Source of the DNA: Streptomyces sp. NBC_00433 | Lineage (GTDB): Bacteria; Actinomycetota; Actinomycetes; Streptomycetales; Streptomycetaceae | Assembly (NCBI GenBank): GCA_036015235.1 | Contig: CP107926.1 | Location: 3,786,001-3,850,000, forward strand | Direction: 5' to 3' | Length of the DNA: 64,000 bases | In this document: positions 12,829-61,710 of the stretch, one piece after another | How positions within the stretch are numbered: the stretch's first letter is position 1 | How the letters are laid out: the number at the start of each line of letters is the position of its first letter | Program-made: the position numbers and the translations under genes | Notes under the pieces: generated by a model | The model's database searches: none | Seen by the model: the letters and a program-made list of their open reading frames with translations, nothing else | Told to the model about the DNA's origin: nothing

Positions 12829-13147
12829 GCGGGTGAGGTTACGACGCCACCTCACTGCGTGGCTACCCGTGAGTAAGCCGATTTCTTCCCCTGCTCAGGT
12901 TTCCGCCACCTCCCGCTGGCATGTTCCCCGCCGTGGCCGCCCGGCCTGGGGTAACCCTCGGTAGCGGGCGTCCCCACTTGCGCCGCGTGAGTGGCTTGTC
13001 ACGCAGTTCCCCGCGCCCCTGGGTGATTGCCCCTTGCGGTGGCGTTGCTTTCCTGCCCGCCTCGCCGGCGGGGCGCGCAGTTCCCCGCGCCCCTTGTGGC
13101 CTGCGTCCCCCTACGCCCCGCATCGGCCCCTGGAGGGTGAGCGTTTT
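12829..13147. repeat. Mosaic intergenic repeats, region 1
   Basis: Between the aldehyde dehydrogenase and kinase genes the core GCAGTTCCCCGCGCCCCT occurs at 13003-13020 and 13077-13094, and an inverted copy runs from 13150 into the kinase 3' end. The spacer between the first two (GCCCCTTGCGGTGGCGTTGC and flanks) recurs inverted near 50070-50120 and 59815-59870. The spacer holding GGAGGGTGAGCGTTTTTCAGG (13132-13151) recurs near 49905-49925 and 59690-59710. No gene is seen. Confidence 0.85.
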
Positions 13148-14707
13148 TCAGGGGCGCGGGGAACCGCGGAGGGGGGTGAAGGTGGCGCGGGCCGTGTCGA
13201 AGGTGGTGCGGGTCGCCTCGACCTGCGTGACGGGTCCCGAGACCCACACGTCGTACATGCGCCCACCTTGCGTCCAGCAGAGATCGAACGTACGGCGGGC
13301 ACCGCCCCCCTCGGGGAAGCCGTCGTAGGTGAATTCCCAGAGCGCGGCCTCGTGGCCGTTCTGCGTGGTCCGCGTGATGACGCCGTCACGGTAGCCCGCG
13401 TAGATGCCATGGGCGCCGCGCGCCGCCACGTGCTGGGCGTGCATGACGGCGTACGGGCCGCCGGGGTCGGGGTCCTGGACGCGTTCACCGAAGCGGAAGG
13501 CGTGGTCGGGCGACCAGTAGTAGACGCGGGGCTTGACCTCCTGCCGTACGTAGCCCGCCGGCAGGGCGACGGAGAAGCCGCGCTTGTCGGTGACCGTGAG
13601 GAAGCCGACCGGCAGGGAAGGAGCGGCGGGAGTCGCGGACGGCGCGGGCGCGGGCGCGGGTGTCGACGGCAGGGTCGTCGCCGGGGAGGACGGAGGCGGC
13701 GGCGCGGCCGCGTCGTCGCCCCGGGTGACCACGAGCGCCGCGGTGCCGCCCGCGACGACGGCGATCAGGACGGCCGCCGCCAGCCCGGCCAGCACCCGGC
13801 GCTTCCGGCCGCGCGGCCGGGACGGCGCGTCCTCGACGGGGAGTTCGGGCGTCGGCGCGTCCGGGGTGGGCGGCTCGACGCCGGTCTCCGCGTAGGCGAC
13901 CAGCACGGTCTGCACGTCCGCCGCGGCCATCCGGCGGGCCGGGTCCCTTTCGAGCAGCGCGCGTACCACCGGCAGCAGCGGGCCGACCGTCGCCGGCGGC
14001 ATGATGTCGGCGAAGGCGACGGCGTGCACGATCTCGCCGATCGACTCCCGCTGGAAGGGCGAGTGGCCGTCGACGGCCGCGCACAGCAGCGCGCCCAGCG
14101 ACCACAGGTCGGACTCGGGCCCCGCGGACCGGCCGCCCGACATCCGCTCGGGCGCGGTGTATTCGGGCGAACCGACGAAGGCCCCGGTCTCGCTGATCGT
14201 GGCGCTGCCCGGGATGTGGGCGATACCGAAGTCGGTGAGGACGACGCGGCCGCTCGCGCGGTCGACCAGGACGTTGGCGGGCTTGACGTCGCGGTGCTGG
14301 ATGCCGTGCGCGTGCGCGGCGAGCAGCGCGCCCGCGACGGCCGCGCAGATCCTGGCGGCCTCGCGGGGCGCCAACGGACCGTCCTCGCGCAGGATGTCGG
14401 CCAGGGAGCGGCCCTCGACCAGCTCCATCACGATCCACGGGCGGTCGTCCTGCTCCACGACGTCGTAGACGACGACCACGTGGGGGTGGCGGATACTCGC
14501 GACGCTGCGGGCCTCGCGCAGGGCGCGGTCGTGCTGGCGGCCCGACTCCGGGTGCAACTCCTTGACGGCCACCTGGCGGTGGAGCAGTTCGTCTGTCGCC
14601 GCCCATACGGTGCCCATGCCGCCGCGGCCCACGCGTGCGGTGAGGCGGTACCGCCCCGCGACGACATCCTGGGGTGCCGCGGCCCCCCGCCCCCCGTCAC
14701 TCGCCAT
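13148..14707 (-). CDS. Membrane Ser/Thr protein kinase (kinase A of cluster)
   Basis: Hanks-type kinase of about 519 residues with all key residues: glycine loop GRGGMGTVW, Lys49 in VAVKEL, HRD at 138-140, DFG at 159-161 and APE-like TAPERM. A Pro/Ser-rich linker leads to one membrane span (VLAGLAAAVLIAVVAGGTAALVV) and an extracellular domain of about 160 residues beginning VGFLTVTDKRGFSVALPAGY. The last five codons (GSPRP) and the stop lie in an intergenic repeat element. ATG 14707 was chosen; GTG 14725 is possible. S. coelicolor carries a comparable cluster, linked from memory to spore-wall control. Confidence 0.92.
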   Translation of the reverse strand: MASDGGRGAAAPQDVVAGRYRLTARVGRGGMGTVWAATDELLHRQVAVKELHPESGRQHDRALREARSVASIRHPHVVVVYDVVEQDDRPWIVMELVEGRSLADILREDGPLAPREAARICAAVAGALLAAHAHGIQHRDVKPANVLVDRASGRVVLTDFGIAHIPGSATISETGAFVGSPEYTAPERMSGGRSAGPESDLWSLGALLCAAVDGHSPFQRESIGEIVHAVAFADIMPPATVGPLLPVVRALLERDPARRMAAADVQTVLVAYAETGVEPPTPDAPTPELPVEDAPSRPRGRKRRVLAGLAAAVLIAVVAGGTAALVVTRGDDAAAPPPPSSPATTLPSTPAPAPAPSATPAAPSLPVGFLTVTDKRGFSVALPAGYVRQEVKPRVYYWSPDHAFRFGERVQDPDPGGPYAVMHAQHVAARGAHGIYAGYRDGVITRTTQNGHEAALWEFTYDGFPEGGGARRTFDLCWTQGGRMYDVWVSGPVTQVEATRTTFDTARATFTPLRGSPRP

Positions 14708-14813
14708 GCTCCCATCATGCCGCACCCCGGCACGGCGCTGCCGCGGACTTCACAGTTGCGGCCCGGTGGTGGGACGGGCGGGGCCGGGGAAGCCGGGGGG
14801 GACAGCGGGGAGG

Positions 14814-25904: not shown

Positions 25905-26329
25905 GTCTCGTGCCTCTCTCTATGGCCTGCGGCCCCAGTATCCCGCAACCTGGCCTTCGGCCCGACTCCCACTACGGCGCCCTCCCGCAGGGGGCGCCCT
26001 TCCGCCGGCCGCAGTGGCTGAGAGAGTCCCCTCCGGCAGGGGGTGCGCTTCCCCCCGGGCACGGGGGGTGTGGGATGCCCCTTCGGCAAGGGGGTGCCTG
26101 ATAGGGGCGCGGGGAACTGCGCGACCAGCCCACCACCGGCCGGTGGTCCGGCACGGACCGAACAGCCCCTCACGGACGGTGGCGACGTACAGCCCGTCGA
26201 CGGCTGGTCGCGCAGTTCTCCCCCAGAGCTTCGCCTGGGGGTACCCCCACGCCCCTGGTGGGCACCCCCTTGCCGAAAGGGGACCGCAGCACCACCGCGG
26301 CCCGGGGGATGCTTACCGACCGCCGGAGG
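25905..26329. repeat. Mosaic intergenic repeats, region 2
   Basis: No gene is seen between guaB and the guaB3-like gene. The main element is bounded by AGGGGCGCGGGGAACTGCGC (from 26103, arm to 26130) and its inverted partner GGCTGGTCGCGCAGTTC from 26202. The right arm is interrupted by a hairpin module (CCCCCAGAGCTTCGCCTGGG at 26220-26239, then GGGGTACCCCC). Inside is the perfect palindrome ACCACCGGCCGGTGGT (26132-26147). The same composite recurs at 61529-61655. A further unit with CCCCTTCGGCAAGGGGGTGC lies at 26079-26098. Confidence 0.85.
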
Positions 26330-39055: not shown

Positions 39056-39061
39056 AAAGCG

Positions 39062-39090: not shown

Positions 39091-39102
39091 GCGGAGTGCC
39101 AG
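39076..39102. promoter_or_regulatory. CIRCE element 2 (HrcA operator) upstream of groES
   Basis: TTAGCACTC-N9-GAGTGCCAG with the canonical 9-base spacer. It embraces the -35 box of the groES promoter. Confidence 0.93.
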
Positions 39103-39480: not shown

Positions 39481-40662
39481 GTGACGCCCGAGGATCTTGA
39501 GGGATTGCTGACCGCCGAAGGGCAAGTGCTGCTGGCCGGGCTGCGGGAGCACGACCCCGTGAACGACCTGGCGGCAGCCACGCGTCTGCGGCGTACCCAC
39601 GCCGCGGACCTGGTGGCGGCGGCCCTGGCCCAAACGCGCCTGCGCCAACGCGCCGTCGCCAAGTTCGGCCCGGTCGACGCCCACCGGATGTACTTCACGC
39701 CGCACGGTCTGGAGCAGTCCACCCGCGCGTCGGTGGCGACCCACCGGGCCGCCAGATTCGCGGACTTCGGGCCCGCGGCCGTCGCGGACCTGTGCTGCGG
39801 CGTCGGCGGCGACGTCATCGCCATGCTGCGGGCCGGCCTGTCGGTCACCGCCGTCGACCGCGACCCGCTGACCTGCGCGGTGGTCAGCGCGAACGCCGCC
39901 GCGCTCGGCCTGGCCGACCGCCTTGAGGTCAGGTGCGCGGACGTGCTGGACGCCGGTACGGGCGGCCTGGACGGCGTCTTCGTGGACCCGGCCCGCCGCA
40001 CGGCGAGGGGCAGGGTCTTCGACCCGGAGGCGTATTCGCCGCCGCTGTCGTGGGCGCTCGGCGCGGCGGCGTCCGGTGCGCCCGGGGCGGTGAAGGTCGC
40101 CCCCGGCATCCCGCACGAGGCGGTGCCGCCCGCCGCGGAGGCCGAGTGGATCTCGGACGGCGGCGACGTGAAGGAGGCGGTGCTGTGGTTCGACGGCCGC
40201 GGCGACCGCGTACGGCCCGGCGGCCGCCGCGCGACCCTGCTCCCGTCGGGCGCCACCCTGGTCGGGCGCGGCCTGCCCGACCCCCCGGTGCGGCCGGTCG
40301 GGCGCTACCTCTACGAGCCGGACGGCGCCGTCATCCGCGCGCATCTCGTGGCCGAGGTCGCGGAGGAAGTACGCGGCGGGCTGATCGACGCCACGATCGC
40401 GTACGTCACCGCCGACGAGTTGCGGCCCACGCCGTTCGCCACCGCGTACGAGGTCACCGACGTCCTGCCCTTCGGGCTGAAGCGGCTCAAGGCGCTGGTG
40501 CGCGAACGCGAGGTCGGTGTCCTCACCGTCAAGAAGCGCGGCTCCGCCGTGGACCCGGAGGACCTCCGCCGCCGCGTAAGGCCTCGCGGCCCGCACTCCA
40601 CGACGGTCTTCCTCACGAGGGCCTCCGGCGCTCCCACGATGCTCCTGGCCCACCCGGCGTAA
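39481..40662 (+). CDS. Class I SAM-dependent methyltransferase with THUMP-like C-terminus
   Basis: A 393-residue protein whose SAM site is FGPAAVADLCCGVGGDVIAMLRAGLSVTAVDRDPLTCAVV, followed by VDPARRTARGRVFDPEAYSPP, resembling tRNA/RNA methyltransferase motif IV. The C-terminal portion (GRYLYEPDGAVIRAHLVAEVAEEV and ALVREREVGVLTVKKRGSAVDPEDL) matches the THUMP-like domain found after such methyltransferases. An RNA substrate is probable but not shown. The GTG start is at 39481; its ribosome binding site is weak or close. It is convergent with the deacetylase. Confidence 0.82.
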   Translation: MTPEDLEGLLTAEGQVLLAGLREHDPVNDLAAATRLRRTHAADLVAAALAQTRLRQRAVAKFGPVDAHRMYFTPHGLEQSTRASVATHRAARFADFGPAAVADLCCGVGGDVIAMLRAGLSVTAVDRDPLTCAVVSANAAALGLADRLEVRCADVLDAGTGGLDGVFVDPARRTARGRVFDPEAYSPPLSWALGAAASGAPGAVKVAPGIPHEAVPPAAEAEWISDGGDVKEAVLWFDGRGDRVRPGGRRATLLPSGATLVGRGLPDPPVRPVGRYLYEPDGAVIRAHLVAEVAEEVRGGLIDATIAYVTADELRPTPFATAYEVTDVLPFGLKRLKALVREREVGVLTVKKRGSAVDPEDLRRRVRPRGPHSTTVFLTRASGAPTMLLAHPA

Positions 40663-40900
40663 CTGTCCGGACGCGCCCTTCCCCGCGCACGGGGGGGTGC
40701 CCTTTCGGCAAGGGCGCCTTCCCCCGGGCACGGGGGGGTGCCCTTTCGGCAGGGGGGCGCCTTCCCCGGGCGCGGGGGTGTGGGGTGCCTCTTCGGCAGG
40801 GGGTGCCCCCACGCGCCCCTGGGGTGGTGGCGGTCCGTCGCCACACGACGGCGAGTGGTGGGTTGCGCGCGCCGTTCCCCGCGCCCCTGGGGGCGCCGCC
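40663..40900. repeat. Mosaic repeats, region 5a: GGCA-hairpin units
   Basis: A run of three imperfect units of about 42-47 bases (from about 40674, 40716 and 40757), each with a C-rich lead, GGGCxCGGGGGGGTGCC, and CxCTTTCGGCA(A/G)GGG. They are followed by ACGCGCCCCTGGGG and the core CGTTCCCCGCGCCCCTGGGG near 40873-40892. One related unit lies at 26045-26098. No gene is seen. Confidence 0.8.
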
Positions 40901-41110
40901 CTACGCAGCGGCGCCCACGCGGCGCCAGCCGCGGATCGGGGGCGGGCCCGCGGCCCTGGGGGGCACCCCCTTACGCAGCGGCGCCCACGCGGCGCCAGCC
41001 GCACATCAGGTGCAGGCCCGCGCCCCTGGGGGGCACCCCCTTACGCAGCAGCGCCCACGCGGCGCCAGCCGCGGATCGGGGGCGGGCCCGCGGCCCTGGG
41101 GGGCGTCGCC
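40901..41110. repeat. Three tandem 70-bp repeats
   Basis: Copies at 40901-40970, 40971-41040 and 41041-41110 are exactly 70 bases each. All begin with TACGCAGC(G/A)GCGCCCACGC at the second base and contain GGCGCCAGCCGC. Copies 1 and 3 are nearly identical apart from their last few bases; copy 2 differs around its middle. The array ends ten bases before the stop codon of the deacetylase gene. Confidence 0.93.
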
Positions 41111-41119
41111 GTGCGTCGG

Positions 41120-48772: not shown

Positions 48773-49195
48773 ATGATGACTCTGGGAACGGCACGCATCA
48801 CCTCGTCCGCGACCCCCGGCGCCTTCTTCGACCGCTGGGCGGACATGGCGACCTGGCCCGAGTGGAATGCCGACACCGAATGGGTCCGGCTCGACGGCCC
48901 CTTCACGCCCGGCGCCACGGGTGTCCTCAAGCCCAAGGGGGCGCCGAAGGTGCCCTTCGTGGTGGCCGCGCTCGTCCCCGGCCGGGAGTTCACCGACGTC
49001 TCCAAGCTCGTCGGGGCCCGGCTGACCTTCCGCCACCTCGTCTCCGCCACGGCCGAGGGGTCCACCCGGGTGGACGTCACCGCGACCCTCCGCGGCCCCC
49101 TCGCCCGCGTCTGGAACCTCGCCCTCGGCAAGGGCATCGCCGCCACCCTCCAGGCCGACCTGGACCGCCTCGGCGTGGCGGCGGAAGCCGCATGA
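48773..49195 (+). CDS. SRPBCC-family protein
   Basis: A 140-residue START/SRPBCC helix-grip protein ([28 protein letters not shown] and the C-terminal helix [17 protein letters not shown]), a fold that binds hydrophobic ligands. No catalytic residues are evident. There is no ribosome binding site because the promoter ends just before the ATG. Its stop overlaps the ATG of the MarR gene (ATGA). Confidence 0.85.
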
Positions 49196-49632
49196 GCCTC
49201 GCGACGTCCTTCGGCTCCGCCGAGGAGAGCCCGGGGCTGCTGCTCTGGCAGGTCACCAACCGCTGGCAGGCCGCCCAGCGCGCGGCCCTGCGGCCCCACG
49301 GCCTCACCCACGTCCAGTTCGTCCTCCTCGCCTCCCTCACGTACCTCCAGGACTCCGACTCCCCCGTCACCCAGCGGCGGCTCGCCGATCACGCGGCGAC
49401 CGATCCGATGATGACGTCGCAAGTCCTCCGCACCCTGGAATCCCGCGGTCTCCTCACCCGCCACGCCCACCCCGGCGATGCGAGGGCGCGAGCGCTGGCT
49501 GTGACGACCGAGGGTCGCGACGTCGCGAACCGCGCGGTGAGCTCGGTGGAGGCCTGCGACGCCTCCTTCTTCTCCCCTCTGGGCCCCGAGACGGCCCCCT
49601 TCGCAGCGGCCCTCCGCACCCTCCGCCAGTAG
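49192..49632 (+). CDS. MarR-family transcriptional regulator
   Basis: A 146-residue winged-helix repressor: [51 protein letters not shown] is the DNA-binding helix pair and wing. It is translationally coupled to the SRPBCC gene, and a palindrome in their shared promoter suggests autorepression relieved by a ligand. The stop codon TAG (49630-49632) is the first three bases of a terminal inverted repeat. Confidence 0.9.
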
Positions 49633-50264
49633 CCTGCGGCCCGCACAGTTACGCCCCCGGATGCCACCCCCTGCGGGGTGCCGTTACGGACTCCCCGGTG
49701 CCGCTGCGTGGTGGTTGCGCGCGCAGTTCTCCCCCAGAGCTTCGCCTGGGGGTACCCCCACGCGCCCCTGGGGTGGCAGCCCCGTCCTGTTGCGTTCACA
49801 GTTGCGGTCCGCTCTGGCTGGTCGCGCAGTTCCCCGCGCCCCTTTGGGCCTGCGTCCTCCGCCGCCCAGCCTTCGCCCCTGCCAGGGGCTGGGCTCTGCG
49901 CGGGAGGATGACCGTTTTTCAGGGGCGCGTGGGGGTACCCCCAGACGAAGCTCTGGGGGGGTACCCCCACGGAGCGACAAGCCACGACGGACCGTCGTGT
50001 GGCAACGGACGGCCACCATCCCAGGGGCGCGTGGGGGTACCCCCAGGCGAAGCTCTGGGGGAGAACTGCGCGCCCCGCCGACAAGGCGGGAAAGAAAGCA
50101 ACGCCACCGCAAGGGGCACCCACCCAGGGGCTCGTGGGGGTACCCCCAGGCGAAGCGCTGGGGGAGAACTGCGAGACCGGCCACCCACGCAGCGGCACCG
50201 TGGAGTCCGTAACGGCACCCCGCAGGGAGTGGCACCCGGGGGCGTAACGGCGGGCCGCAGGCTA
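49630..50264. repeat. Mosaic repeats, region 6: 635-bp array with ~80-bp terminal inverted repeats
   Basis: The whole gap between the convergent marR-type and nnr genes is repeat. The left arm 49630-49711 and right arm 50185-50264 match as inverted repeats over about 80 bases with few differences; both begin TAGCCTGCGGCCCGC read outward to inward and supply the stop codons of both genes. Inside are several copies of the GTTCTCCCCCAGAGCTTCGC / GGGGTACCCCC hairpin module (49738, 49930, 50035, 50135) and the AAAGAAAGCAACGCCACCGC module (50091-50110). No gene is seen. Confidence 0.9.
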
Positions 50265-51701
50265 GGTCTTGGCGTTGCGCCACGCCGTGGGGAGGGAGTC
50301 TGCCACGTCGAGGGCGGTGAGGGGGGTGGGGGTGAGGCGGGCCGCCAGGCCGTGGAGGTAGGCGGCGAGGGAGGCAGCCGCGGGGGCCGGGAGAGACGTG
50401 GCCAGGAGGGCCCCGGCGAGGCCGGAGAGGACGTCACCGCTGCCGGCCGTGGCGAGCCACGGCGTCCCGGTGGGGTTGACCCGGACCGGGTCGGAGGAGG
50501 TGGCCGAGGCCACCAGCGTGGTGGACCCCTTGAGAAGAACCGTCGCACGGAAGGCGTCGGCAAGGTCGCGTACCGAGGAGAGGCGCGCGGCCTCGACGTC
50601 CTCGCGCGGCCGCCCGAGGAGCGCGGCGGCCTCACCCGCGTGCGGCGTGAGCACGGTCGGCGCGGTCCGGGCAAGGACCGCGTCCCGGGACATCAGCCGG
50701 AGCCCGTCCGCGTCGATGAGCACCGGCACATCCGTGGCGAGGACTTCCGCGACCGCGGCCCTGGCGGCGGCCGAGTCGCCGAGCCCGGGTCCGACGACCC
50801 ACGCCTGGACGCGGCCCGCGTCGTGCGGGGATCCGGTGGAGACCAGCGTCTCGGGGTGCCGGGCGAGGACGGCGGCCGCGCCACCGCCGACGTAGCGGAC
50901 GGCTCCCGCGCCGCCGCGGATGGCGCCGGAGACGGCGAGGACCGCGGCGCCGGGGTAGCGGTCGGACCCGGCGACGACCCCGACCACGCCTCGCCGGTAT
51001 TTGTCGCTCTCGCCGCCCGGCCGCGGCAGCAGCGCGGCGACGTCGGCGTGCTGGAGGGCCTCGACCGCGGGAGCGCCCAGGTGGGGGCCGAGGCCGATGT
51101 CGATGAGCCGCAGGGCGCCGGCGAGTTCGGCGGCGGGGTCGATGAGCAGGCCGGGCTTGTACGTGCCGAAGGTGACGGTGACGTCGGCGCGGACGGCTTC
51201 GCCGGTGACCTCTCCGGTGTCGGCGTCGACGCCGCTGGGCAGGTCGACGGCGACGACGGCGGCCCGGGTGTCGTACGCGGCCCGCATGAGGTCGGCGGCC
51301 TGCGGGCGGAGTCCGCCCTTGCCGCCGATGCCGACGATCCCGTCGTAGACGAGGTGCGCGCGGGTGACGGCCGCGAGGCCGTCGCGGTCGTCCACGACCC
51401 GGCCGCCGGCGGCCCGCAGCGCCGCGAGGCCGCCGGTGTGCGCCCGCTCGGGCGCCAGCAGGACGGCGGTGACCCCGGCGCCGCGGCGGGCGAGGCGCGC
51501 GCCCGCGTAGAGGGCGTCACCGCCGTTCGCGCCGCTTCCCGCGACCACGACGACCCGGGCGCCGTAGACGCGCCCCAGGACGTCGGCGCCGACGGCCGCG
51601 AGCCCGGTGGCGGCCCGCTGCATGAGCGTGCCTTCCGGCAGCCGCGCCATGAGCGCGGCCTCCGCGTCCCGTACGGCCTGGACCGTGTGCGCGTACCTCA
51701 T
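50262..51701 (-). CDS. nnr: Bifunctional NAD(P)HX epimerase / ADP-dependent dehydratase
   Basis: Repairs hydrated NADH and NADPH. The 479 residues combine an N-terminal YjeF_N epimerase domain ([24 protein letters not shown], then [15 protein letters not shown] and [13 protein letters not shown]) and a C-terminal ribokinase-like dehydratase ([39 protein letters not shown]). ATG 51701 has GGGAGGG six bases upstream. It follows acpS in the same orientation, the common actinomycete order. Its stop codon lies in a repeat arm. Confidence 0.94.
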
Positions 51702-51742
51702 CGCGTGCCCTCCCGTCGCCTTGCCCCCGACGATACGTACCG

Positions 51743-51855
51743 CCCGCCACCGCGGCACCCCGGCCCCTGGCGCGGCCCACCGCGGAGGCGGCACCCGCGT
51801 CGTGGTCGAGGAACTGGTGCCGGCCGCCTACGCCCAGCTCGGCGACCCTTGCAGA
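51743..51855 (-). pseudogene. Decayed duplicate of the acpS 3' end
   Basis: On the minus strand this gap encodes [26 protein letters not shown] in one open frame, closely matching the AcpS C-terminus [26 protein letters not shown]. The 25-bp block starting CCCGCCACCGCGGCACCCC occurs at both 51743-51767 and 51856-51880, marking the edges of the duplicated unit. The copy lacks about 35 bases near its 3' end, including the original stop region. It has no start codon of its own and is not expected to function. Confidence 0.8.
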
Positions 51856-51907
51856 CCCGCCACCGCGGCACCCCGGCCCCGGGTTTCGGCCACGGCCGGC
51901 GGACGGC

Positions 51908-52276
51908 TCAGCCCTCGGCGATGACCACGGCGGAGGCGACACCCGCGTCGTGGCTGAGGGACAGGTGCCAGCTGCGTACGCCGAGTTCGGCGGCGCGGGC
52001 GGCGACCGTGCCGGTGACGGTCAGCCGGGGGCGCCCGGACGGCTCCGTGCTGACCTCGGCGTCGAGCCAGCTGAGCCCGGCGGGGGCGCCCAGGGACTTG
52101 GCGAGCGCCTCCTTGGCGGCGAAGCGCGCGGCGAGTGAGGCGATACCGCGCGGGGCGCCGCTGGGGAGCCGCAGTTCGCCGGGGGTGAAGAGGCGTTCCG
52201 CCATTCCCGGGGTGCGCTCCATCGCGGCGGCGAACCGTTCGATCTCGGCGACGTCGATCCCGACCCCGACGATCAT
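51908..52276 (-). CDS. acpS: Holo-[acyl-carrier-protein] synthase
   Basis: Transfers 4'-phosphopantetheine from CoA to acyl carrier protein. 122 residues with the metal-binding [13 protein letters not shown] and the signature [13 protein letters not shown], ending [17 protein letters not shown]. Start ATG 52276. The neighbouring divergent coaA makes the CoA precursor, so both ends of CoA use lie together. A tandem remnant of its 3' end lies directly downstream. Confidence 0.95.
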
Positions 52277-52376
52277 CCGGCGTCCCCTCGGGGGCGCGTG
52301 GCGTTGCCGTACATGGGGCCAGCTTAAGGGGCCGGCGCCGCGCGGCCGCGGCGCGCGCCCTGCGAGGATGCTCACC

Positions 52377-53342
52377 GTGACGACCACCCCCACCGCGCCC
52401 GCCAGCCCCTTCGTCGACCTGACCAGGGGGCAGTGGAGCGCCCTGCGGGAGCGGACGCCCTTGCCGCTGACCGCGGCGGAGGTGGAGCGCCTGCGCGGGC
52501 TCGGGGACGTCATCGACCTCGACGAGGTGGTGGACGTCTACCTGCCTCTGTCCCGCCTGCTGAATCTGTACGTGGCCGCGCACAGCGGGCTGCGCGGGGC
52601 GCTGAACACCTTCCTGGCGGGCGCGGCGGGCGGCCCGCAGCCGGGGACGCCGTTCGTGATAGGCGTCGCCGGGAGCGTGGCGGTGGGGAAGTCGACGACC
52701 GCCCGGCTGCTGCAGGCGCTGCTGGCGCGGTGGCCGGAGCACCCGCGGGTGGAGCTGGTCACCACCGACGGCTTCCTGCTGCCCAACGCGGAATTGCAGC
52801 GGCGCGGCCTGATGTCGCGCAAGGGCTTCCCCGAGTCCTACGACCGGCGCGCGCTGACCCGTTTCGTCGCGGACGTGAAGTCCGGCAAGGCCGAGGTGAC
52901 CGCGCCGGTCTATTCGCACCTGATCTACGACATCGTGCCCGGTGAGCTGCTGACCGTCCGCCGTCCCGACATCCTCATCGTGGAGGGCCTGAACGTGCTG
53001 CAGCCCGCGCTGCCGGGGCAGGACGGCCGTACGAGGATCGGGCTGGCGGACTACTTCGACTTCAGCGTCTACGTCGACGCCCGCACCGAGGACATCGAGC
53101 AGTGGTATCTCGGGCGGTTCAGGAAGCTGCGGGAGACCGCCTTCCAGAATCCCGACTCGTACTTCACGAAATGCACCCGGGTGGCCGAGGACGAGGCGAT
53201 GGACTACGCCCGCATGATCTGGCGGACCGTCAACCGGCCGAACCTCCAGGAGAACGTCCTGCCGACCCGCAGCCGGGCCACGCTGGTCCTGCGCAAGAGC
53301 CAGGACCACAAGGTGCAGCGCCTTTCGCTGCGCAAACTGTGA
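52377..53342 (+). CDS. coaA: Pantothenate kinase, type I
   Basis: First enzyme of CoA synthesis, phosphorylating pantothenate. 321 residues with the P-loop [17 protein letters not shown], the pantothenate region [14 protein letters not shown] and GFPESYD, and the typical end [18 protein letters not shown]. The start GTG 52377 has GAGGA eight bases upstream; the in-frame ATG 52368 lies on that same GAGG and is less likely. Divergent from acpS with about 100 bases between them. Confidence 0.95.
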
Positions 53343-53431
53343 CGCCGCGTGCGCCGGCACCCTGACGCTGCCCGCCCGAGAACGGCCGCGGGCGCCGCGG
53401 GGTGCCGGCGGCGCAGGACGTGGCGGGCGCG

Positions 53432-54790
53432 TCAGCCCAGTGTCGACTTGACGACGTCCGCGAGGCGGCCCGCCACCGACCTGGCGTGGTCGATGTCGGC
53501 GGCCTCCACCATGACGCGGACCAGCGGCTCGGTGCCTGAGGGGCGCAGCAGCACCCGCCCGGTCGCGCCCAGCTCCGCCTCGGCCTCGGCGACGGCCATG
53601 ACCAGCTCGGGAGCGGTCCCGGCGCGGCTCTTGTCGACGTCCGGCACATTGACCAGCACCTGCGGCAGCCGCCGCATGACACCGGCCAGGTCGGCAAGGG
53701 TGCGGCCGGTCGCGGTGACGCGGGCGGCGAGCAGCAGCCCGGTCAGGGTGCCGTCGCCGGTGGTGGCGTGGTCGAGCACGATGACGTGGCCGGACTGCTC
53801 GCCGCCGAGCGCGTAGCCGTGCTCCTTCATCGACTCCAGGACGTAGCGGTCGCCGACCGCGGTCTGCACGAGGGTGATGCCCTCGCGCTCCATGGCCAGC
53901 TTGAAGCCCAGGTTGGACATCACGGTGCCGACGACGGTGTTGCCGCGCAGCTCGCCGCGCTCGCGCAGCGACAGCGCGAGGATCGCCAGGATCTGGTCGC
54001 CGTCGACCTCCTCGCCCGCCCCGTCCACGGCCAGGCAGCGGTCGGCGTCGCCGTCGTGCGCGATGCCGAAGTCGGCACCGTGCTCTATGACGGCGCTCTT
54101 GAGCAGCTCCAGGTGGGTGGAGCCGCAGCCGTCGTTGATGTTGAGGCCGTCGGGGCGGGCGCCGATGGTGATGACTTCCGCGCCGGCCCGCGAGAAGGCC
54201 TCGGGCGACACGCGGGACGCGGCGCCGTGCGCCTCGTCCAGGACGATCTTGAGGCCGTCGAGCCGGTTGGGCAGCACGCCGATGAGGTGGGCGACGTACT
54301 GGTCGAAGCCCTCGTCGTAGTCCTTGACCCGGCCGACGCCCGCGCCGGTGGGGCGGAGCCAGGGGGCGCCGGTGCGGTGCTCCTCGTAGATCTTCTCGAT
54401 CCGGTCCTCAAGGTCGTCGTCCAGCTTGTGGCCGCCGCGGGCGAGGAACTTGACGCCGTTGTCCGGCATCGCGTTGTGGCTCGCGGACAGCATCACGCCG
54501 AGGTCGGCGCCCAGCGCGCCGGTGAGATACGCCACCGCCGGGGTGGGCAGCACACCGACCCGCAGGACGTCCACGCCCGCGCTCGCCAGGCCCGCCACGA
54601 CAGCGGCCTCCAGGAATTCGCCCGAGGCGCGCGGATCGCGCCCGACCACCGCGACCGGGCGGTGCCCCGCGAAGGTGCCCGCCTCGGCGAGTACGTGTGC
54701 CGCCGCGACCGACAGGCCGAGCGCAAGCTCGGCGGTGAGGTCCGCGTTGGCGATGCCACGCACCCCGTCGGTACCGAAGAGTCGTCCCAC
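53432..54790 (-). CDS. glmM: Phosphoglucosamine mutase
   Basis: Converts glucosamine 6-phosphate to glucosamine 1-phosphate for UDP-GlcNAc and peptidoglycan. 452 residues with the N-terminal [14 protein letters not shown], the phosphoserine loop [13 protein letters not shown], the metal loop DGDADRCL and the phosphate-binding [15 protein letters not shown] 54790 has GGAGGA six bases upstream. It lies downstream of rpsI after a strong hairpin terminator, so it likely has its own promoter. Confidence 0.96.
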
Positions 54791-54996
54791 TGTGTGTCCT
54801 CCGATGCGATACGGCGGCTCTGCCGTGTCGGCCGTGCCCGGCCGTACTCCAGGTGCGCAGGTGCCGGCCGCCGGCGCCGGCGCCGAGTGCGCGAGCCGGG
54901 GGCGGGGCGCACCTGCTTGGTGCTTGACGTTTGGCGCCCTGTTATTGGTTGTACCAGTCGTATCACCACAGATATACGACCACGGCGCCACATGCG

Positions 54997-55032
54997 AACG
55001 CCCCGGAGGCAATGGTGTGCCTCCGGGGCGTT
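54997..55032 (-). terminator. Terminator of the rplM-rpsI operon
   Basis: A perfect 14-bp stem: AACGCCCCGGAGGC at 54997-55010 and its complement at 55019-55032, with an 8-base loop. It lies about 55 bases after the rpsI stop. On the minus strand the stem ends in TT only. Confidence 0.85.
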
Positions 55033-55085
55033 GTGCAGCGGCACCGGCAGCGGCGACGGCGTGCCGTCGCGTGTGCCGGTGGCGA

Positions 55086-55601
55086 CTAGCGCTTGCTGAA
55101 CTGCGGCGCCTTGCGGGCCTTCTTCAGACCGGCCTTCTTCCGCTCGACCGCGCGGTCGTCACGGGTCAGGAAGCCGGCCTTCTTGAGCGGGCCGCGGTTG
55201 TTGTCGACGTCGGCCTCGTTCAGCGCACGGGCGACACCGAGGCGCAGCGCACCGGCCTGGCCCGAGATGCCGCCGCCGCTGATGCGGGCGATGACGTCGT
55301 AGCGGTTGTCGAGTTCGAGCACCTTGAAGGGCTCGTTGACTTCCTGCTGGTGCACCTTGTTGGGGAAGTAGCCCTCAAGGGTGCGGCCGTTGATCTTCCA
55401 CTTGCCGCTGCCCGGGACGATACGGACACGCGCGATGGACTGCTTGCGGCGGCCGGTGCCGGCGGCCGGCTGCGGGTCGCCGAAGCGCGACGCGAGCGAC
55501 TCGGAGGTGTACTCCCCCTCGACGGCGTCGGACTCGAAGGTGGTGATCTCCTCGAAGGACTCGTCGCCCTCGATGACGGTCTCGGCAGTGGTCTCAGCCA
55601 C
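55086..55601 (-). CDS. rpsI: 30S ribosomal protein S9
   Basis: Small-subunit protein S9, 171 residues. The core ([24 protein letters not shown] and the basic tail [17 protein letters not shown], whose end reaches the P-site tRNA) is preceded by an acidic extension of about 45 residues ([18 protein letters not shown]), common in actinomycetes. It follows rplM by 42 bases in the same operon. Confidence 0.97.
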
Positions 55602-55643
55602 GATTCTCCTCAGGATTCTTTCTGTGGTAGCTGGTGGCCGGAA

Positions 55644-56087
55644 CTACTGCGCGACCTGGGTGATCTCGAACGGCACCGGCTGCTGTGCAGCGTGCGGGTG
55701 CTGGTCGCCCGAGTAGACCTTCAGCTTGGAGAGCATCTGACGGCCCAGGGTGTTCTTGGGGAGCATGCCCTTGACGGCCTTCTCGACGGCCTTCTCGGGG
55801 TTCTTGTCCATCAGCTCGTCGTAGCGCACGGAACGCAGACCGCCCGGGTAACCCGAGTGGCGGTAGGCCATCTTCTGGGTCCGCTTGTTACCCGAGAGGT
55901 GGATCTTGTCGGCGTTGATGATGACGACGAAGTCACCCGTGTCGACGTGGGGCGCGTAGATGGGCTTGTGCTTGCCCCGCAGAAGGGTGGCGGCCTGAGT
56001 GGCCAGACGGCCCAGGACAACGTCCTGCGCGTCGATGACGTGCCACTGGCGCTGGATATCGCCGGGCTTGGGGCTGAACGTACGCAC
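55644..56087 (-). CDS. rplM: 50S ribosomal protein L13
   Basis: Large-subunit protein L13 of 147 residues, with [28 protein letters not shown] and the [27 protein letters not shown] segment. GTG start. First gene of the rplM-rpsI operon, with a leader of about 200 bases after a strong promoter. Confidence 0.97.
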
Positions 56088-56302
56088 GGTCGTAGCCTTC
56101 GCTTCTTCTCAGTAGTGGTTTCCCCTGACCCGCCGCGAGGGCGGTGGGGAAGGGTCCTGACAAGGCCACCCGGACGATCACGACAGCCGTGGCCGCATAC
56201 GGGGACGCAACCCGTCTGCCTGCCGCTGGTCATCGGCCCGGTGAACCGGCGTAAGGGCCCCTCACGTGAGATAGAGCAAGCCAATACGCATAACGAACTC
56301 GT

Positions 56303-56332
56303 AGAATACCGGGGCGGGGCCGTACGGGTCAA
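56303..56332 (-). promoter_or_regulatory. rplM-rpsI promoter
   Basis: On the minus strand TTGACC (56327-56332) and TATTCT (56303-56308) are 18 bases apart, in an AT-rich pocket. The predicted transcription start near 56296 leaves a leader of about 209 bases before rplM, longer than needed for initiation. Confidence 0.75.
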
Positions 56333-56385
56333 AACGGGGGTCCCCCACGCCCCGCGGGAACGGTCCTGGGCCGTTACCCTGCCCG

Positions 56386-58008
56386 CTACCGCTTGCGCTC
56401 CACCCGGCGCTCGTCCCACACCGGCTCGGCCGTCTCGCGGACCAGGCCGTCTGAGCCGAAGACCAGGTAGCGGTCGAAGCTGCGGGCGAACCAGCGGTCG
56501 TGGGTCACCGCGAGCACCGTGCCGTCGTAGGCCTCAAGACCCTCCTGGAGGGCCTCGGCGCTCTCCAGGTCCAGGTTGTCCGTCGGCTCGTCGAGCAGCA
56601 GCGCGGTGGTGCCCTCCAGCTCCATCAGCAGGATCTGGAAGCGCGCCTGCTGCCCGCCGGACAGCTTGTCGAAGGGCTGGTCGCCCTGCTGCTCCAGCTC
56701 GTAGCGGCGCAGCACCGACATGGCCCGGCCGCGGTCCCGCGAGTGCTCGGTCCACAGGATGTCCACCAGCGGGCGGCCGCGCAGCTCGGGGTGCGCGTGG
56801 GTCTGCGCGAAGTGGCCCGCCACGACGCGGGCGCCCAGTTTGTACGTCCCCGTGTGCGCCACACCCTCGTCACCGGCCAGCAGCCGCAGGAAGTGCGACT
56901 TGCCCGAGCCGTTGGAGCCGAGCACCGCGACCCGCTCGCCGTAGAAGACCTCCAGGTCGAACGGCTTCATCAGGCCGGTCAGCTCCAGCTTCTCGCAGGT
57001 CACCGCCCGCACACCGGTCCTGCCGCCCTTGAGCCGCATCCTGATGTCCTGCTCGCGCGGCGGCTCCTGCGGGGCGCCCGCGTCCTCGAACCGCTTCAGC
57101 CGGGTCTGGGCCGCGTGGTAGCGCGACGCCATGTCGGGGCTGTTCGCCGCCTGCTGCCGCAGCCGCAGCACCATCGCCTTGAGCTTGGCGTGCTCCTCCT
57201 CCCAGCGGCGCCGCAGCTCCTCGAAGCGCGCGAAGCGCTCCTTGCGTGCCTCGTGGAAGGTGCTGAAGCCGCCGCCGTGCACCCAGGTCGTCGACCCGGC
57301 GGGGCCGGTCTCCACGCTGACGATCTTCTCCGCCGTACGCGACAGCAGCTCGCGGTCGTGGCTGACGAACAGCACGGTCTTCCTGGTGGCGGCGATCTGC
57401 TCCTCCAGCCACCGCTTGCCGGGGACGTCCAGATAGTTGTCCGGCTCGTCGAGCAGCAGCACCTCGTCCGGACCGCGCAGCAGCGCTTCGAGCACCAGCC
57501 GCTTCTGCTCGCCGCCGGACAGCGTCTTGACCTCGCGCCACTGCGCCCGCTCGTAGGGGACGCCGAGCGCGGCCATCGTGCACATGTCCCACAGCGTCTC
57601 GGCCTCGTAGCCGCGCGCCTCCGCCCAGTCGCCGAGCGCGTGCGCGTATGCCATCTGCGCGGGCTCGTCGTCCTGCGCCATGATCGCCAGCTCGGCCGCG
57701 TCCACGGCTTCCGCGGCCGCCCTGATACGCGGGTGCGCCACGGAGACCAGCAGGTCGCGTACGGTCCTGTCGTCCCGGACGCTGCCGATGAACTGCCGCA
57801 TCACGCCGAGGCCGCCGCTGACGGTGACACCGCCGCCGTGCGGGGCGATCTCGCCGGAGATCAGCCGCAGCAGCGTGGTCTTGCCTGCGCCGTTCGGCCC
57901 GACCAGTGCCACGGCCGCGCCGTCGCCGACGCGGAACGAGACGTCGCCGAGCAGCGCCCGCCCGTCCGGCAGGTAGTACTCCAGGTGCGCTGCTTCCACA
58001 TGTCCCAT
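56386..58008 (-). CDS. ABC-F family ATP-binding protein
   Basis: Soluble protein of 540 residues with two ABC ATPase domains and no membrane segments. Domain 1: GPNGAGKTTLLRL and LSGGEQKRLVLEALL with LLLDEPDNYLD. Domain 2: GSNGSGKSHFLRLL and LSGGQQARFQILLMELEGTTALLLDEPTDNLD. A charged linker of the ABC-F type lies between (about residues 240-310). Such proteins act at the ribosome; some protect it from antibiotics, others help translation, and which applies here is unknown. ATG 58008 has GGGAGAA upstream. Confidence 0.92.
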   Translation of the reverse strand: MGHVEAAHLEYYLPDGRALLGDVSFRVGDGAAVALVGPNGAGKTTLLRLISGEIAPHGGGVTVSGGLGVMRQFIGSVRDDRTVRDLLVSVAHPRIRAAAEAVDAAELAIMAQDDEPAQMAYAHALGDWAEARGYEAETLWDMCTMAALGVPYERAQWREVKTLSGGEQKRLVLEALLRGPDEVLLLDEPDNYLDVPGKRWLEEQIAATRKTVLFVSHDRELLSRTAEKIVSVETGPAGSTTWVHGGGFSTFHEARKERFARFEELRRRWEEEHAKLKAMVLRLRQQAANSPDMASRYHAAQTRLKRFEDAGAPQEPPREQDIRMRLKGGRTGVRAVTCEKLELTGLMKPFDLEVFYGERVAVLGSNGSGKSHFLRLLAGDEGVAHTGTYKLGARVVAGHFAQTHAHPELRGRPLVDILWTEHSRDRGRAMSVLRRYELEQQGDQPFDKLSGGQQARFQILLMELEGTTALLLDEPTDNLDLESAEALQEGLEAYDGTVLAVTHDRWFARSFDRYLVFGSDGLVRETAEPVWDERRVERKR

Positions 58009-58093
58009 GGCGTGAATTCTCCCGTGTGCTCCGAGTGCGCCCAACCGCTTTTCCCCGTACGGCCCCCGGTAGGCCGGTAGCCGGACCGGCAAT

Positions 58094-59488
58094 ATGATGC
58101 GCGACATGACCGATGGCCCCGGGCAGCAGCAGCCGCCGCAGGAACCGCGCTCCACCACCGATGGCGCCGGCGAGCGCGAAGTGCTGGAGGGACGCGTCAT
58201 CCCCTCCCGTCCGCAGTCCCACCAGGACGCCGACCCGCGCCGGCAGTTCCGCCGCCAGGCCCCACCGCCGCAGGCCCCCTCCGCCGGCCCCGCCTGGTCC
58301 CCCCAGGCCGACGCCGCCGCCCAGGCAGGGCCCCCGCCGCACGCCCAGGGCCGGCCCTGGGCACCCGAGGCCCAGCAGCCCGCGCTGGACCCGACGCCCC
58401 CGCAGGAGGCGGCGCCGCAGATCGCGCCGGCGCAGGAGTGGGCGCAGCCGCCGGTTCAGCAGCCGCCGGTTCAGCAACCGCAGCCGCCTGCCCAGCAGCA
58501 GTACGCGCCCCCGCAGCAGCAGGGCCCGGCCCGGCACGCGGCCCCAGCGCCGCAACAGGCCTACGGGCCCCCGCAGCAGGCCCCGCAGGGCCCGCGGCAG
58601 CCCGCCCACGGCGGTGGCGGGCACGTACCGTTCGCGGGCGGGCCCGTACCCCGGCCGACGCCGCCACGCGAGCGGACGCCCGAGCCGGAGGCCGCCACGC
58701 CCGACTGGGGCGCGCTCGCCGAGCGGCAGGAGGCCACCGGTGCGCGCCGGCGCCGCGCGCTGATGCTCACCGGCGGGATCGTCGCCGTCGCCGTCATAGC
58801 CGGCGGTGTCGCCACCGCCGTCGTCATGTCGGGCAAGAGCAGCGACGACAAGCCGGTCGCGGGACCGTCCTCGTCCACCGGCGCCACCGCGAGCCAGCCG
58901 ACGCTCCCTCCCCTGCCGTCCTTCTCCTCCGTCGCCCCGCCCCCGCCGGCGAACCCGCTCGACTACCTCAACACCGCCGCCAAGGACAAGGCCCCGCTCA
59001 CCCCGGACTCCCTCTTCCCGGGCAAGCAGTTCGTCTGGCAGGGCCGCACCTACGTCAAGACCAAGGCCGACGTCACGACGGCCTGCGCGAAGAACGCCCG
59101 CAAGGGCGTCGCGACGGCCCTCACCGCCAACGGCTGCCAGAAGCTGATCCGCGCCACCTACACGCAGGGCGCGCTCGCCGTGACGGTCGGCGTCGCCGTC
59201 TTCCCCGACAACACCCACGCCAAGAAGGTCGGCGGCGTCTCCCAATACCTGGCCCCGCTCAACGGCGGCGGCGTCCCCGACTTCTGCCACGCCGTGCGCT
59301 GCCAGATGACGGCCAATTCCGTCGGCCGCTACGCCTACTTCGCCATCGCCGGCTTCAAGAACGGCACGACGCTGGCGGCGACCGACACGGTGGGCCGGCA
59401 GGCGGCCGATGACGCGTCCGACTTCGCCTTCAACCGCATAGTCCAACGCGGCAAAGACGCTGCCGCTGCGGACCCCACACGACAGTAG
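58094..59488 (+). CDS. Single-span membrane protein with Pro/Gln-rich cytoplasmic region
   Basis: A 464-residue protein in three parts: a long disordered cytoplasmic N-terminus full of Pro, Gln and Ala (about residues 1-215, QQQYAPPQQQGPARHA-like runs), one membrane span (ALMLTGGIVAVAVIAGGVATAVVM), and an extracellular domain of about 200 residues with cysteines near TACAKNA, NGCQKL and FCHAVRCQ that could form disulfides. No catalytic motif. ATG 58094 or 58106 could be the start. Function unknown; the layout resembles membrane anchors of cell-envelope complexes. Confidence 0.78.
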   Translation: MMRDMTDGPGQQQPPQEPRSTTDGAGEREVLEGRVIPSRPQSHQDADPRRQFRRQAPPPQAPSAGPAWSPQADAAAQAGPPPHAQGRPWAPEAQQPALDPTPPQEAAPQIAPAQEWAQPPVQQPPVQQPQPPAQQQYAPPQQQGPARHAAPAPQQAYGPPQQAPQGPRQPAHGGGGHVPFAGGPVPRPTPPRERTPEPEAATPDWGALAERQEATGARRRRALMLTGGIVAVAVIAGGVATAVVMSGKSSDDKPVAGPSSSTGATASQPTLPPLPSFSSVAPPPPANPLDYLNTAAKDKAPLTPDSLFPGKQFVWQGRTYVKTKADVTTACAKNARKGVATALTANGCQKLIRATYTQGALAVTVGVAVFPDNTHAKKVGGVSQYLAPLNGGGVPDFCHAVRCQMTANSVGRYAYFAIAGFKNGTTLAATDTVGRQAADDASDFAFNRIVQRGKDAAAADPTRQ

Positions 59489-59972
59489 CCCCTCCGGCGG
59501 GGGCGCCCCGGCACACCGGTGATTGCCCCTTGCGGTGCGGCGCTAGCCTGCGGCCCGGTGGGGGCTGTGCGCGCAGTTCCCCGCCACTCCCTGCGGGGTG
59601 CTTTACGGACTCCACAGTGCCGCTGCGTGGGTGGCTTGTCGCGCCGTTCTCCCCCAGAGCTTCGCGTGGGGGTACCCCCACGCGCCCCTGAAAAACGCTC
59701 ACCCTCCGCCCAGAGGGCTTCGCCCCTGCCAGGGGCAAACACCTGGCGCAGGAGGACGCAGGCCCAAAGGGGCGCGTGGGGGTACCCCCAGGCGAAGCTC
59801 TGGGGGAGAACTGCGCGCCCCGCCGGAGAGGCGGGAAAGAAAGCAACGCCACCGCAAGTGGCAATCACCCAGGCGTGCGTGGGGGTACCCCCTGGCGAAG
59901 CGCTGGGGGGAGAACGGAGCGACCAGCCCCCAGCGGGCCGCAGGCGCGCGGGCCAGCGCGAGGGGCACCCCC
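59489..59972. repeat. Mosaic intergenic repeats, region 7
   Basis: Fills the gap between the convergent membrane protein and truA genes. Modules seen: CCTGCGGCCCGGTGGGGGCT (59550-59569), with an inverted relative near 59927-59950; CTGCGGGGTGCTTTACGGAC (59591-59610); the CCCCCAGAGCTTCGCGTGGG hairpin (59650-59669); inverted hairpin copies near 59780-59815 and 59878-59915; and AAAGAAAGCAACGCCACCGC (59837-59856). Order and orientation differ from region 6 although the pieces are the same. No gene is seen. Confidence 0.87.
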
Positions 59973-60842
59973 CTAGGCGCAACCCGGCACGGACAGTGTG
60001 CGGAGGTTGCGGGACTCCAGGTTGCGCGCCGCGAGCATGGCGTCGGCGGGGTAGCCGACCTCCTCCAGGGTGAGCCCGTGCGGACGCACGACGTTCACCG
60101 CGGAGTGCCTGACCCGTCCGGCCAGGACTTCCGCGGGGAAGCCCACCGCCCGGTGCCCGTCCCCGACCAGGATCATCGCCCCGACCAGCGCCCGCACCAT
60201 GTTGTGGCAGAAGGCGTCAGCCCGCACCGTGGCGACGGCCACGCCGTCATCGCGCCGCACCCACCGCACGTCCAGCAGCGTGCGGATCGTCGTCGCACCC
60301 TCGCGCTTCTTGCAGTACGCGGCGAAGTCGTGCTCGCCGAGCAGCAGCGAAGCGGCGGCGTTCATCGCGTCGACGTCGACCGGGCGGTCGTGCCACAGGA
60401 CGTGGCCGCGCAGCAGCGGGTCCACCCCGCCGGGGTGGTCGCCGACGCGGTAGGCGTACCGCCGCCAGATCGCGGAGAAGCGCGCGTTGAAGCCGGCGGG
60501 CGCCTCGCGGACGCCGAAGACGCGGACGTCCCAGGGCAGCCGTCCCGCCAGGCGCCTGCGCAGCTTGTCGTGCTCGGCGGCCCAGACGTCCGCGGGCAGG
60601 TCGACGTGCGCGACCTGGCCGCGCGCGTGGACGCCGGCGTCCGTGCGGCCGGCCACGGTCAGCTCGACCGGGTCGGGCAGCCGCAGCACCGTGGCGATCG
60701 CGGACTCCAGCTCGCCCTGCACGGTGCGCCGGGTGCGCTGCTTGGCCCAGCCGGAGAATTCGGCCCCGTCGTATGCCAGGTCCAGCCGGACCCTCACGAA
60801 GCCGGGTGCCGGGTCGTCACTCACGGGGTAGCTCCTCGCCAT
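59973..60842 (-). CDS. truA: tRNA pseudouridine synthase A
   Basis: Makes pseudouridine at positions 38-40 of tRNA anticodon stems. 289 residues with the catalytic Asp in [15 protein letters not shown], the N-terminal [16 protein letters not shown], and RRYAYRV further on. It lies downstream of rplQ in the same orientation, as in many actinomycetes, and is probably co-transcribed from the ribosomal operon. Its stop lies at the edge of a repeat array. Confidence 0.95.
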
Positions 60843-60906
60843 GGGGGAACGGAAGCGGACCCGTACCCCCAGGGGGTACGGGTCCGCCCGTGGAACACAA
60901 CCGGGC

Positions 60907-61416
60907 TCACGCCTCGGTGTCGTCCTCCGCGTCAGCGGGCTTGGCGTCCTCGACGGCCTCGTCCTTCTTGAGGTCCTTCAGGGCGTCGTCACCCGCGGTG
61001 TCCTTCGCGGAACGCTTCGTCGCGGCCTCGGCCTCACCGACAGCGGACTGCTGCACGGTCAGGGCCTCGACCAGCTCGATGACCGCCATCGGGGCGTTGT
61101 CGCCACGACGGGGGCCGATCTTGGTGATGCGGGTGTAGCCACCGGGGCGGTTCTCGTACCGCGGGCCGATCTCGGTGAAGAGCGTGTGCACGATGCTCTT
61201 GTCCGTGATCGTCTGCAGCACCTGGCGACGGTTGTGCATGTCGCCCTTCTTCGCCTTGGTGATGAGGCGCTCCGCGACCGGGCGCAGCCGGCGCGCCTTG
61301 GCCTCGGTGGTGGTGATGCGGCCGTGCTCGAAGAGCGACTTCGCGAGGTTCGCGAGGAGCAGCTTCTCGTGCGCGGCGCTGCCGCCCAGACGGGCACCCT
61401 TGGCAGGCTGAGGCAT
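60907..61416 (-). CDS. rplQ: 50S ribosomal protein L17
   Basis: Large-subunit protein L17, 169 residues. The core runs from [25 protein letters not shown] through RVEQ-type rRNA-binding segments to [13 protein letters not shown]; after residue about 120 there is an Asp/Glu/Lys/Ala-rich tail found in actinomycete versions. ATG 61416 has GGAGAAAG upstream. It is separated from rpoA by nearly 300 bases that include a repeat element. Confidence 0.96.
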
Positions 61417-61710
61417 GGTCTTTCTCCTTCTACGCTGCACCGGCCGTGTCAGGTACCGATGTCAGTGCGAACTGGCGGCTGCCAGCTCGTGGTGTGTCCA
61501 GGGGCTCGCGCCCCGGACGGCGCCCCCCAGGGGCGCGGGGAACCGCGCGCTCAGCCCACCACCGGCCGGTGGTCCGGAGCGGACCGGGCTGCCCCTTCGG
61601 GCCGGTGACGACCTGCGGCCCGTCGGCGGCTGGTCGCGCAGTTCCCCGCGCCCCTTCGGGGCACGGGTCCTACCCGGCGGCACCGGAATCCCGGGAACCG
61701 CCGGAGGCGA
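61417..61710. repeat. Mosaic repeat element in the rpoA-rplQ interval, region 8
   Basis: A 127-bp element bounded by inverted arms 61529-61556 and 61628-61655 (25 of 28 bases match, core GTTCCCCGCGCCCCT). It contains the palindrome ACCACCGGCCGGTGGT at 61558-61573 and is the closest relative of the element at 26103-26255. It lies between two co-oriented ribosomal-operon genes and would be transcribed into their mRNA as a large hairpin. Confidence 0.88.

Follow-up and report, generated by a model that had tools for sequence, protein, structure and literature searches.

We analysed a 64,000-nucleotide stretch of the Streptomyces sp. NBC_00433 genome (contig CP107926.1, positions 3,786,001 to 3,850,000; hereafter the window), which carries a family of modular, hairpin-rich repeats in eight regions, R1 to R8. 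The repeats have in common a core, GTTCCCCGCGCCCCT; in what we call a long core, a hairpin of ~31 bp takes the place of the core's CC. The genes flanking the eight regions are ordinary (aldehyde dehydrogenase, protein kinase, two IMPDH-domain proteins, 10-kDa chaperonin, rpoA, rplQ, and others), and by our own gene calls the gaps that hold the regions are four convergent, three co-directional, and one divergent. The regions are as follows, in window coordinates, with the strand of each core in parentheses:

R1, 12682-13164: tandem units with cores at 13006-13020 (+) and 13080-13094 (+), and an opposed core at 13150-13164 (-) that ends the kinase gene at 13148-14632 (-).
R2, 25905-26329: a core at 26103-26117 (-) and a long core at 26215-26256 (+), facing outward, between two IMPDH-domain genes.
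R3, 35813-35958: one long core at 35888-35931 (+), in a convergent gap.
R4, 38928-39525: a one-mismatch core at 39207-39221 (-) and a perfect 32-bp palindrome, AGGGGCGCGTGGGGGTACCCCCACGCGCCCCT, at 39275-39306.
R5, 40663-41119: a core at 40874-40888 (+), in a convergent gap.
R6, 49633-50261: long cores at 49726-49769 (+) and 50023-50066 (-), a core at 49829-49843 (+), and further degenerate long cores, in a convergent gap.
R7, 59489-59972: long cores at 59646-59689 (+) and 59768-59811 (-) around a linker, in a convergent gap.
59701-59718, minus strand: a terminator-like hairpin, GCCCTCTGGGCGGAGGGT then GAGCGTTTTT, within the linker module of R7.
R8, 61529-61655: a complete 127-bp inverted-repeat element between rpoA (61711-62733) and the L17 leader/rplQ.

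No transposase was detected by Pfam among the 15 genes flanking R1-R8 (one of which had no Pfam match), as the original prediction had stated. None of the repeat elements matched an Rfam family above its gathering score; the window matched only the ydaO/yuaA leader (c-di-AMP riboswitch RF00379, at 128-284) and the L17 leader (RF03132, at 61435-61489), with the R8 element lying between the latter and rpoA.

With regard to the reality of the family, a search allowing up to two mismatches recovered eight exact cores and one with a single mismatch in the window, compared with a mean of 1.03 and a maximum of 4 matches in 100 window shuffles. Across the genome (a single contig of 8,986,572 bp) we counted 345 exact cores, 162 and 183 on the two strands, where ~0.1 would be expected (0.05-0.14 in Markov models, order 1-5, trained on 864 kb of it). 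A reversed-pattern control gave 17 matches, a figure that overstates the background because TCCCCGCGCCCCTTG sits inside the core plus TG. The density of cores along the chromosome is uneven, with none before 0.6 Mb. Exact copies of every module named in the original prediction were found in the window, two or more of each; one of the TGAAAAACG copies, at 42025, is not in any of the eight regions, and the weaker module matches elsewhere in the window look like chance. The modules also co-occur elsewhere in the genome; failure to do so had been named as grounds for abandoning the prediction. The proposed modular repeat family is thereby confirmed as real in both the window and the genome.

The arrays are located at gene 3' ends, with convergent gaps preferred. 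In an 864-kb sample of the genome, where genes are our own codon-usage calls and not an annotation, 55 of 56 exact cores were intergenic and the remaining one makes a gene's stop codon. These cores form 37 clusters, of which 22 are in co-directional, 12 in convergent, and 3 in divergent gaps, as against 21.7, 5.2, and 10.1 expected from intergenic length (p = 0.001). For the 22 co-directional gaps, the median distance was 130 bp to the 3' end of the upstream gene and 310 bp to the next gene. At R1, the stop codon of the Ser/Thr kinase gene is formed by the final bases of the core together with the next module (13148-13164), and the repeat adds a 7-residue C-terminal extension that is absent from five relatives (the protein ends TFTPLRGSPRP here, and TFTP, TFAP, TFVP, or TFTPPG in the relatives).

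The basic unit is an imperfect palindrome of ~40 bp with a consensus around GGCTGGTCGCGCA-GTTCCCCGCGCCCCT; the core is its sharp outer end, with the edge directly after CCCCT. We aligned the flanks of 86 copies from this genome and 66 from other loci of the family (mostly in named Streptomyces), the core being invariant in this alignment because exact copies were picked. On the inner side the next six bases carry 0.9-2.0 bits and conservation fades over ~40 bp, and on the outer side it drops instantly to at most 0.6 bits. Units are strung together in both orientations with few linkers. Among the 86 own copies, six upstream and eight downstream arm classes had at least three members and occurred in many combinations, two upstream classes pairing mainly with three downstream ones; these classes, together with the locus comparisons described below, bear out the original statement that module order and orientation vary. 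The predicted replacement of part of the core by a hairpin is also real: the 864-kb sample holds 20 long and 60 short cores, the long ones with several different arms on either side. A second core filling, CCACGCGGCGCCAGCCGCAGATCAGAC..., occurs six times in the same sample, and similar forms are found at rpoA-rplQ of some named Streptomyces. At 3600676-3601202 of the genome we observed near-identical tandem units with a 210-bp period, each with a core and a filled core.

That the modules join at the core, as the original prediction held, proved correct for the core's outer edge only, and not for just any position within it. When the 44 repeat-bearing intervals of the 864-kb sample were each compared with all the others, 3968 match ends were obtained. 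Of these, 738 were no more than 3 bp from the outer edge, where 123 would be expected, and the inner edge had 81 against an expected 121. Although the matches are interdependent, they point clearly one way, to modules meeting immediately outside CCCCT. Multi-module blocks are common to distant loci, such as 176 bp shared at 96% identity between 3,992,855 and 4,012,671 of the genome, and R6 and R7 share a 161-bp block at 91%.

Spacings between neighbouring cores (up to two mismatches) were counted over non-overlapping stretches, some of the added stretches having been chosen for their arrays. Outward pairs were 108-114 bp apart in 23 of 24 cases, tandem pairs 73-75 or 67-68 bp in 54 of 85, and inward pairs 47-52 or 90-98 bp in 25 of 45. 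For neighbours less than 400 bp apart in the 864 kb of this genome, 23 of 40 pairs were inverted (11 outward, 12 inward) and 17 tandem; with the other stretches added, there were 69 inverted and 85 tandem pairs. Head-to-head units are joined via linkers, some of which contain a terminator-like hairpin. The outward (tail-to-tail) pair constitutes an inverted-repeat element of 127-129 bp, with 24 exact-ended copies in this genome. Nine of the ten genomes of the own genus that were tried contain it with exact ends, and none of four genomes of the other sampled Streptomycetaceae genus (g2, probably Streptomyces) does, although these hold 111-218 cores. In an alignment of 35 of 39 elements (four, aberrant by eye, were dropped before pairs were counted), the terminal inverted repeats extend over ~21 bp, some with mismatches.

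Such an element could be a miniature inverted-repeat transposable element (MITE), that is, a form of an insertion sequence (IS) shortened by deletion and moved by the transposase of that IS, in which case the other arrays would be its debris. The terminal inverted repeats, the near-constant length, and the 5-37 exact-ended copies in each of the nine own-genus genomes would all suit this explanation. However, none of 26 exact elements was flanked by a direct repeat of at least 2 bp, a weak test given skewed flanks and a chance expectation of only 1.2 (2 bp) or 0 (at least 3 bp). The four genes with cores on both sides in the 864-kb sample are not transposase-like by eye, and the lack of exact-ended elements in the core-rich g2 genomes implies that the unit there is not debris of this element. 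We therefore consider a MITE origin unlikely.

The family is largely a feature of the Streptomycetaceae. A class-wide sample of 394 genomes had core matches in 32; all genomes with more than one copy were Streptomycetaceae, and the eight matching genomes outside this family had exactly one copy each. Within a family-wide sample of 121 genomes from 17 genera, at least one copy was present in 77 genomes, belonging to 11 genera. Exact core counts in the own genus ranged from 0 (6 of 24 relatives) up to 510 per genome, and among the 39 g2 genomes, 20 had at least five copies, 3 had one, and 16 had none. A second dispersed family, TCAAACGCCGGACGGGCT, had 0-59 exact copies per genome in 63 genomes. 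Its inverted pairs in G039 are 103-116 bp apart, near the spacing of the first family, with interiors that look different between copies, and its pairs in G392 face the opposite way at short distance.

Repetitive extragenic palindromes (REPs) have been proposed to be moved by REP-associated tyrosine transposases (RAYTs; PMC2817692, PMC3116915). Inverted pairs at fixed spacing, a small imperfect palindrome, and high copy number would fit RAYT-driven REP doublets (REPINs) like those of Pseudomonas. However, PF01797 (Y1/RAYT) was found in none of the 18 repeat-bearing own-genus genomes examined, this genome included, and in five of six repeat-free ones (a survey that left out G408, 71% complete, and eight further genomes). 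There was no association in g2, where PF01797 occurred in 6 of 20 genomes with at least five cores and in 8 of 19 with none or one. In addition, the 17 tandem pairs among 40 neighbours are not what REPINs would predict. On this distribution of PF01797 we reject RAYT mobilisation, and the REPIN explanation appears highly improbable; a RAYT may once have been present and since lost. Among the repeat-free genomes, G394, G397, G403, G406, and G417 had 1-18 Y1 transposase matches and G410 had none, possibly a clade difference. A search for PF04986 (IS91-type Y2 transposase) gave no match in 24 genomes, which is uninformative as control genomes also gave none. We also reject carriage by phages or plasmids: a 21-mer of core plus arm had no match in IMG/VR contigs, the 127-bp element had no match in 50,697 phage records, and it matched 5 of 72,556 plasmid records, all from Streptomyces and over 33-42% of the query.

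Comparisons with relatives showed that occupied sites tend to persist across species while array contents turn over. The alignment of G402 with our genome spans 403 kb (93.8% identity); in 464 kb of our genome, just 3 of the 42 exact cores lay within the aligned blocks. Nevertheless, 13 of the 17 repeat-occupied intervals of G402 were also occupied here, compared with 2.3 expected, and none of 5000 shuffles reached 13. These shuffles were stratified by gap type and handled our own interval lengths only via cut-offs; with cut-offs of 100, 150, 200, and 250 bp, 13 of 15, 14, 14, and 13 intervals were shared, with 3.3-4.4 expected. An alternative mapping of the intervals gave 12 of 15 shared against 2.1 expected, and window intervals were shared above expectation with five of five relatives (shuffle p from 0.0005 to 0.10). 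Core-less short alleles exist at some shared sites: the segment compared at R4 has a length of 401 bp in our genome but 79 bp in G399 and 101 bp in G402, and that of R5 is 491 bp here, 42-48 bp in G405, G407, and G414, 115 bp in G402, and 191 bp (core included) in G399. G414 lacks the R8 element. With regard to rpoA-rplQ, a loose core pattern was found in this gap in 31 of the best 80 of 548 loci (named genomes), in the sense orientation only in 29, antisense only in 1, and in both in A. cocklensis; a motif resembling the second family TCAAACGCCGGACGGGCT was present in 11 of the same 80. G402 also has, at the place matching 3820331 of our genome, a 171-bp insertion next to CTAG, with long inverted ends (GGCCTGTCCGGCGGATC...), that looks like an ordinary MITE, and the gap at 3666775 is 13.7 kb here and 70 bp in G402.

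In the comparison of orthologous loci that the original prediction had called for, short alleles were seen at R4 and R5 and no element at R8 in G414, and intervals were shared far above chance. The other ground named for abandoning the prediction, conservation of copies at the same loci in distant genera, partly applies: 13 of 17 intervals are shared between species, and the rpoA-rplQ gap has a unit in 31 of the best 80 genomes. As for the suggestion that the repeats are mobile palindromic elements, dispersal and fast turnover (0-510 copies per genome within a genus, core-less alleles, 3 of 42 cores alignable) are in agreement with it, and no target-site duplication (26 elements), parent element (864 kb), or mobilising enzyme was seen.

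We interpret the family as REP-like mosaic repeats of Streptomycetaceae, comparable to bacterial interspersed mosaic elements (BIMEs), whose blocks are copied without a RAYT and whose arrays serve as structured or terminated 3' ends; we would give this reading a probability of roughly 60%. Some trans-acting factor other than a RAYT, or else recombination, would copy blocks bounded by core ends from array to array and occasionally into new gaps. The arrays would be retained, or at least tolerated, because their hairpins give mRNAs structured or terminated 3' ends in both directions. Several points weigh against this interpretation. No mobilising enzyme was found, either in the PF01797 profile searches or among the core-flanked genes of the 864 kb, so that the copying step is only inferred. 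The matches in the junction test are not independent of one another. In co-directional gaps, 14 cores lay on the strand of the genes and 21 on the other (p = 0.31); such a lack of bias agrees with a palindrome but lends termination no positive backing. Lastly, the internal pairs of the 127-bp element showed no clear excess of covariation (35 elements, five trial structures): inner pairs were formed in 72-83% of cells, and in 72-83% of cells in shuffles as well.

With all pairs included, two of the five trial structures were borderline on a single measure each, the percentage paired in L250 being reached by 23 of 500 shuffles and the number of double-change cells in L241 by 12 of 500. No 5-bp stem of the 127-bp element combined high pairing with two or more double changes, and a conserved RNA fold under selection is therefore not clearly supported. 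As single-stranded DNA the element does fold strongly (z -6.1), and AGGGGCGCGGGGAACTGCGCGACCAGCC, folded as DNA, has an interrupted stem of 7 pairs (-7.9 kcal/mol, z -2.06), with the opposite strand weak (z -0.5). Of eight terminator-like sites (stem plus U-run) at 49000-62000, two fall in R7 and none in R6 or R8, shuffles of the region giving a mean of 2.7. Judging from these sequence features, a terminator role for some modules is plausible.

It is possible that the arrays are instead old functional 3'-end hairpins (terminators or elements of RNA stability) maintained by site-wise selection and gene conversion, with little true transposition. The tendency of intervals to be conserved when their contents are not, the unit at rpoA-rplQ with its 29 occurrences in the same orientation, and the U-run hairpins in one linker would be expected in that case. 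Needed terminators are, however, hard to square with a range of 0-510 copies within one genus and near-empty orthologous gaps, and the lack of clear covariation is a further difficulty; we find this explanation doubtful, if more probable than a MITE origin. The repeats could alternatively be binding sites for nucleoid proteins or gyrase, kept for chromosome architecture. Binding of gyrase and integration host factor (IHF) by BIMEs is reported in PMC2817692, and it is the sequence of the unit, not its pairing, that is conserved here; but many relatives have no cores at all and the chromosomal density is uneven, and we consider an architectural role very unlikely.

A more specific version of the REP-like mosaic interpretation can be put forward only tentatively. 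A RAYT-independent system specific to Streptomycetaceae might copy CCCCT-bounded units into like arrays, so that the gaps act as long-lived landing pads rewritten within the lifetime of a species, and the unrelated TCAAACGCCGGACGGGCT family might use the same machinery. REP-type repeats are usually explained by RAYTs, and here up to 510 exact cores per genome occur without one; a REP-like family of this kind would imply that BIME-like mosaics can arise through another enzyme or through recombination by itself. That sites tend to persist while their contents turn over also sets apart two matters commonly treated as one, where repeats are allowed and what they consist of. These ideas are partly testable on existing Term-seq data from several Streptomyces species, given that the repeats lie at gene ends and that one of them has made a new stop codon.

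The repeat family was not recognised in the open literature searched, a search with subscription papers mostly outside it and in which six core strings matched only a mouse neurexin paper. Such strings are familiar to Streptomyces workers. Like the 3' ends mapped by Term-seq in S. clavuligerus and S. avermitilis, the repeats have GC-rich stems, some followed by U, but those accounts, in their available parts, mention no dispersed repeat family. They resemble MITEs in being non-coding and in the inverted ends and near-constant length of the 127-129 bp element, and differ in that what is dispersed is a unit shorter than this inverted element, with no target-site duplication seen (26 elements) and no parent IS (864 kb). 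The GTAG- and CGTC-tagged superfamilies, for which PMC3733652 describes small, mostly intergenic stem-loop families (the CGTC repeats seemingly without a dedicated transposase), are similar in kind; however, neither end tag is in the consensus of our 86 own and 66 other copies, and a passage there names other phyla, the main text being without the word "Actinobacteria".

According to PMC3116915, a REPIN is a pair of units in inverted orientation and at a set distance, able to form a long hairpin; the inverted pairs here, also at fixed spacing, could fold in the same way. Inverted pairs nevertheless make up 93% of doublets there, compared with 23 of 40 neighbouring pairs here, and our family has neither clear compensatory changes in the interior nor a RAYT. 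The closest likeness is to the REP/BIME repeats of E. coli, Pseudomonas, and Stenotrophomonas, which PMC2817692 characterises as short imperfect palindromes in more than 100 copies, extragenic, clustered with linkers, and strongly different between related genomes. Our family agrees with these in copy number (345 versus more than ~100), palindromic unit, extragenic placement, clustering, and difference between genomes, and departs from them in its occurrence in Actinobacteria, the lack of a RAYT, the sharp CCCCT boundary, and the nested hairpin variant of the core. Because the tests for a GTAG/CGTC tag and for a RAYT both failed, we do not class it as REP proper; in view of its anatomy, copy number, location, and turnover, all of them REP/BIME-like, we prefer to describe it as a REP-like mosaic family of Streptomycetaceae that lacks a RAYT.

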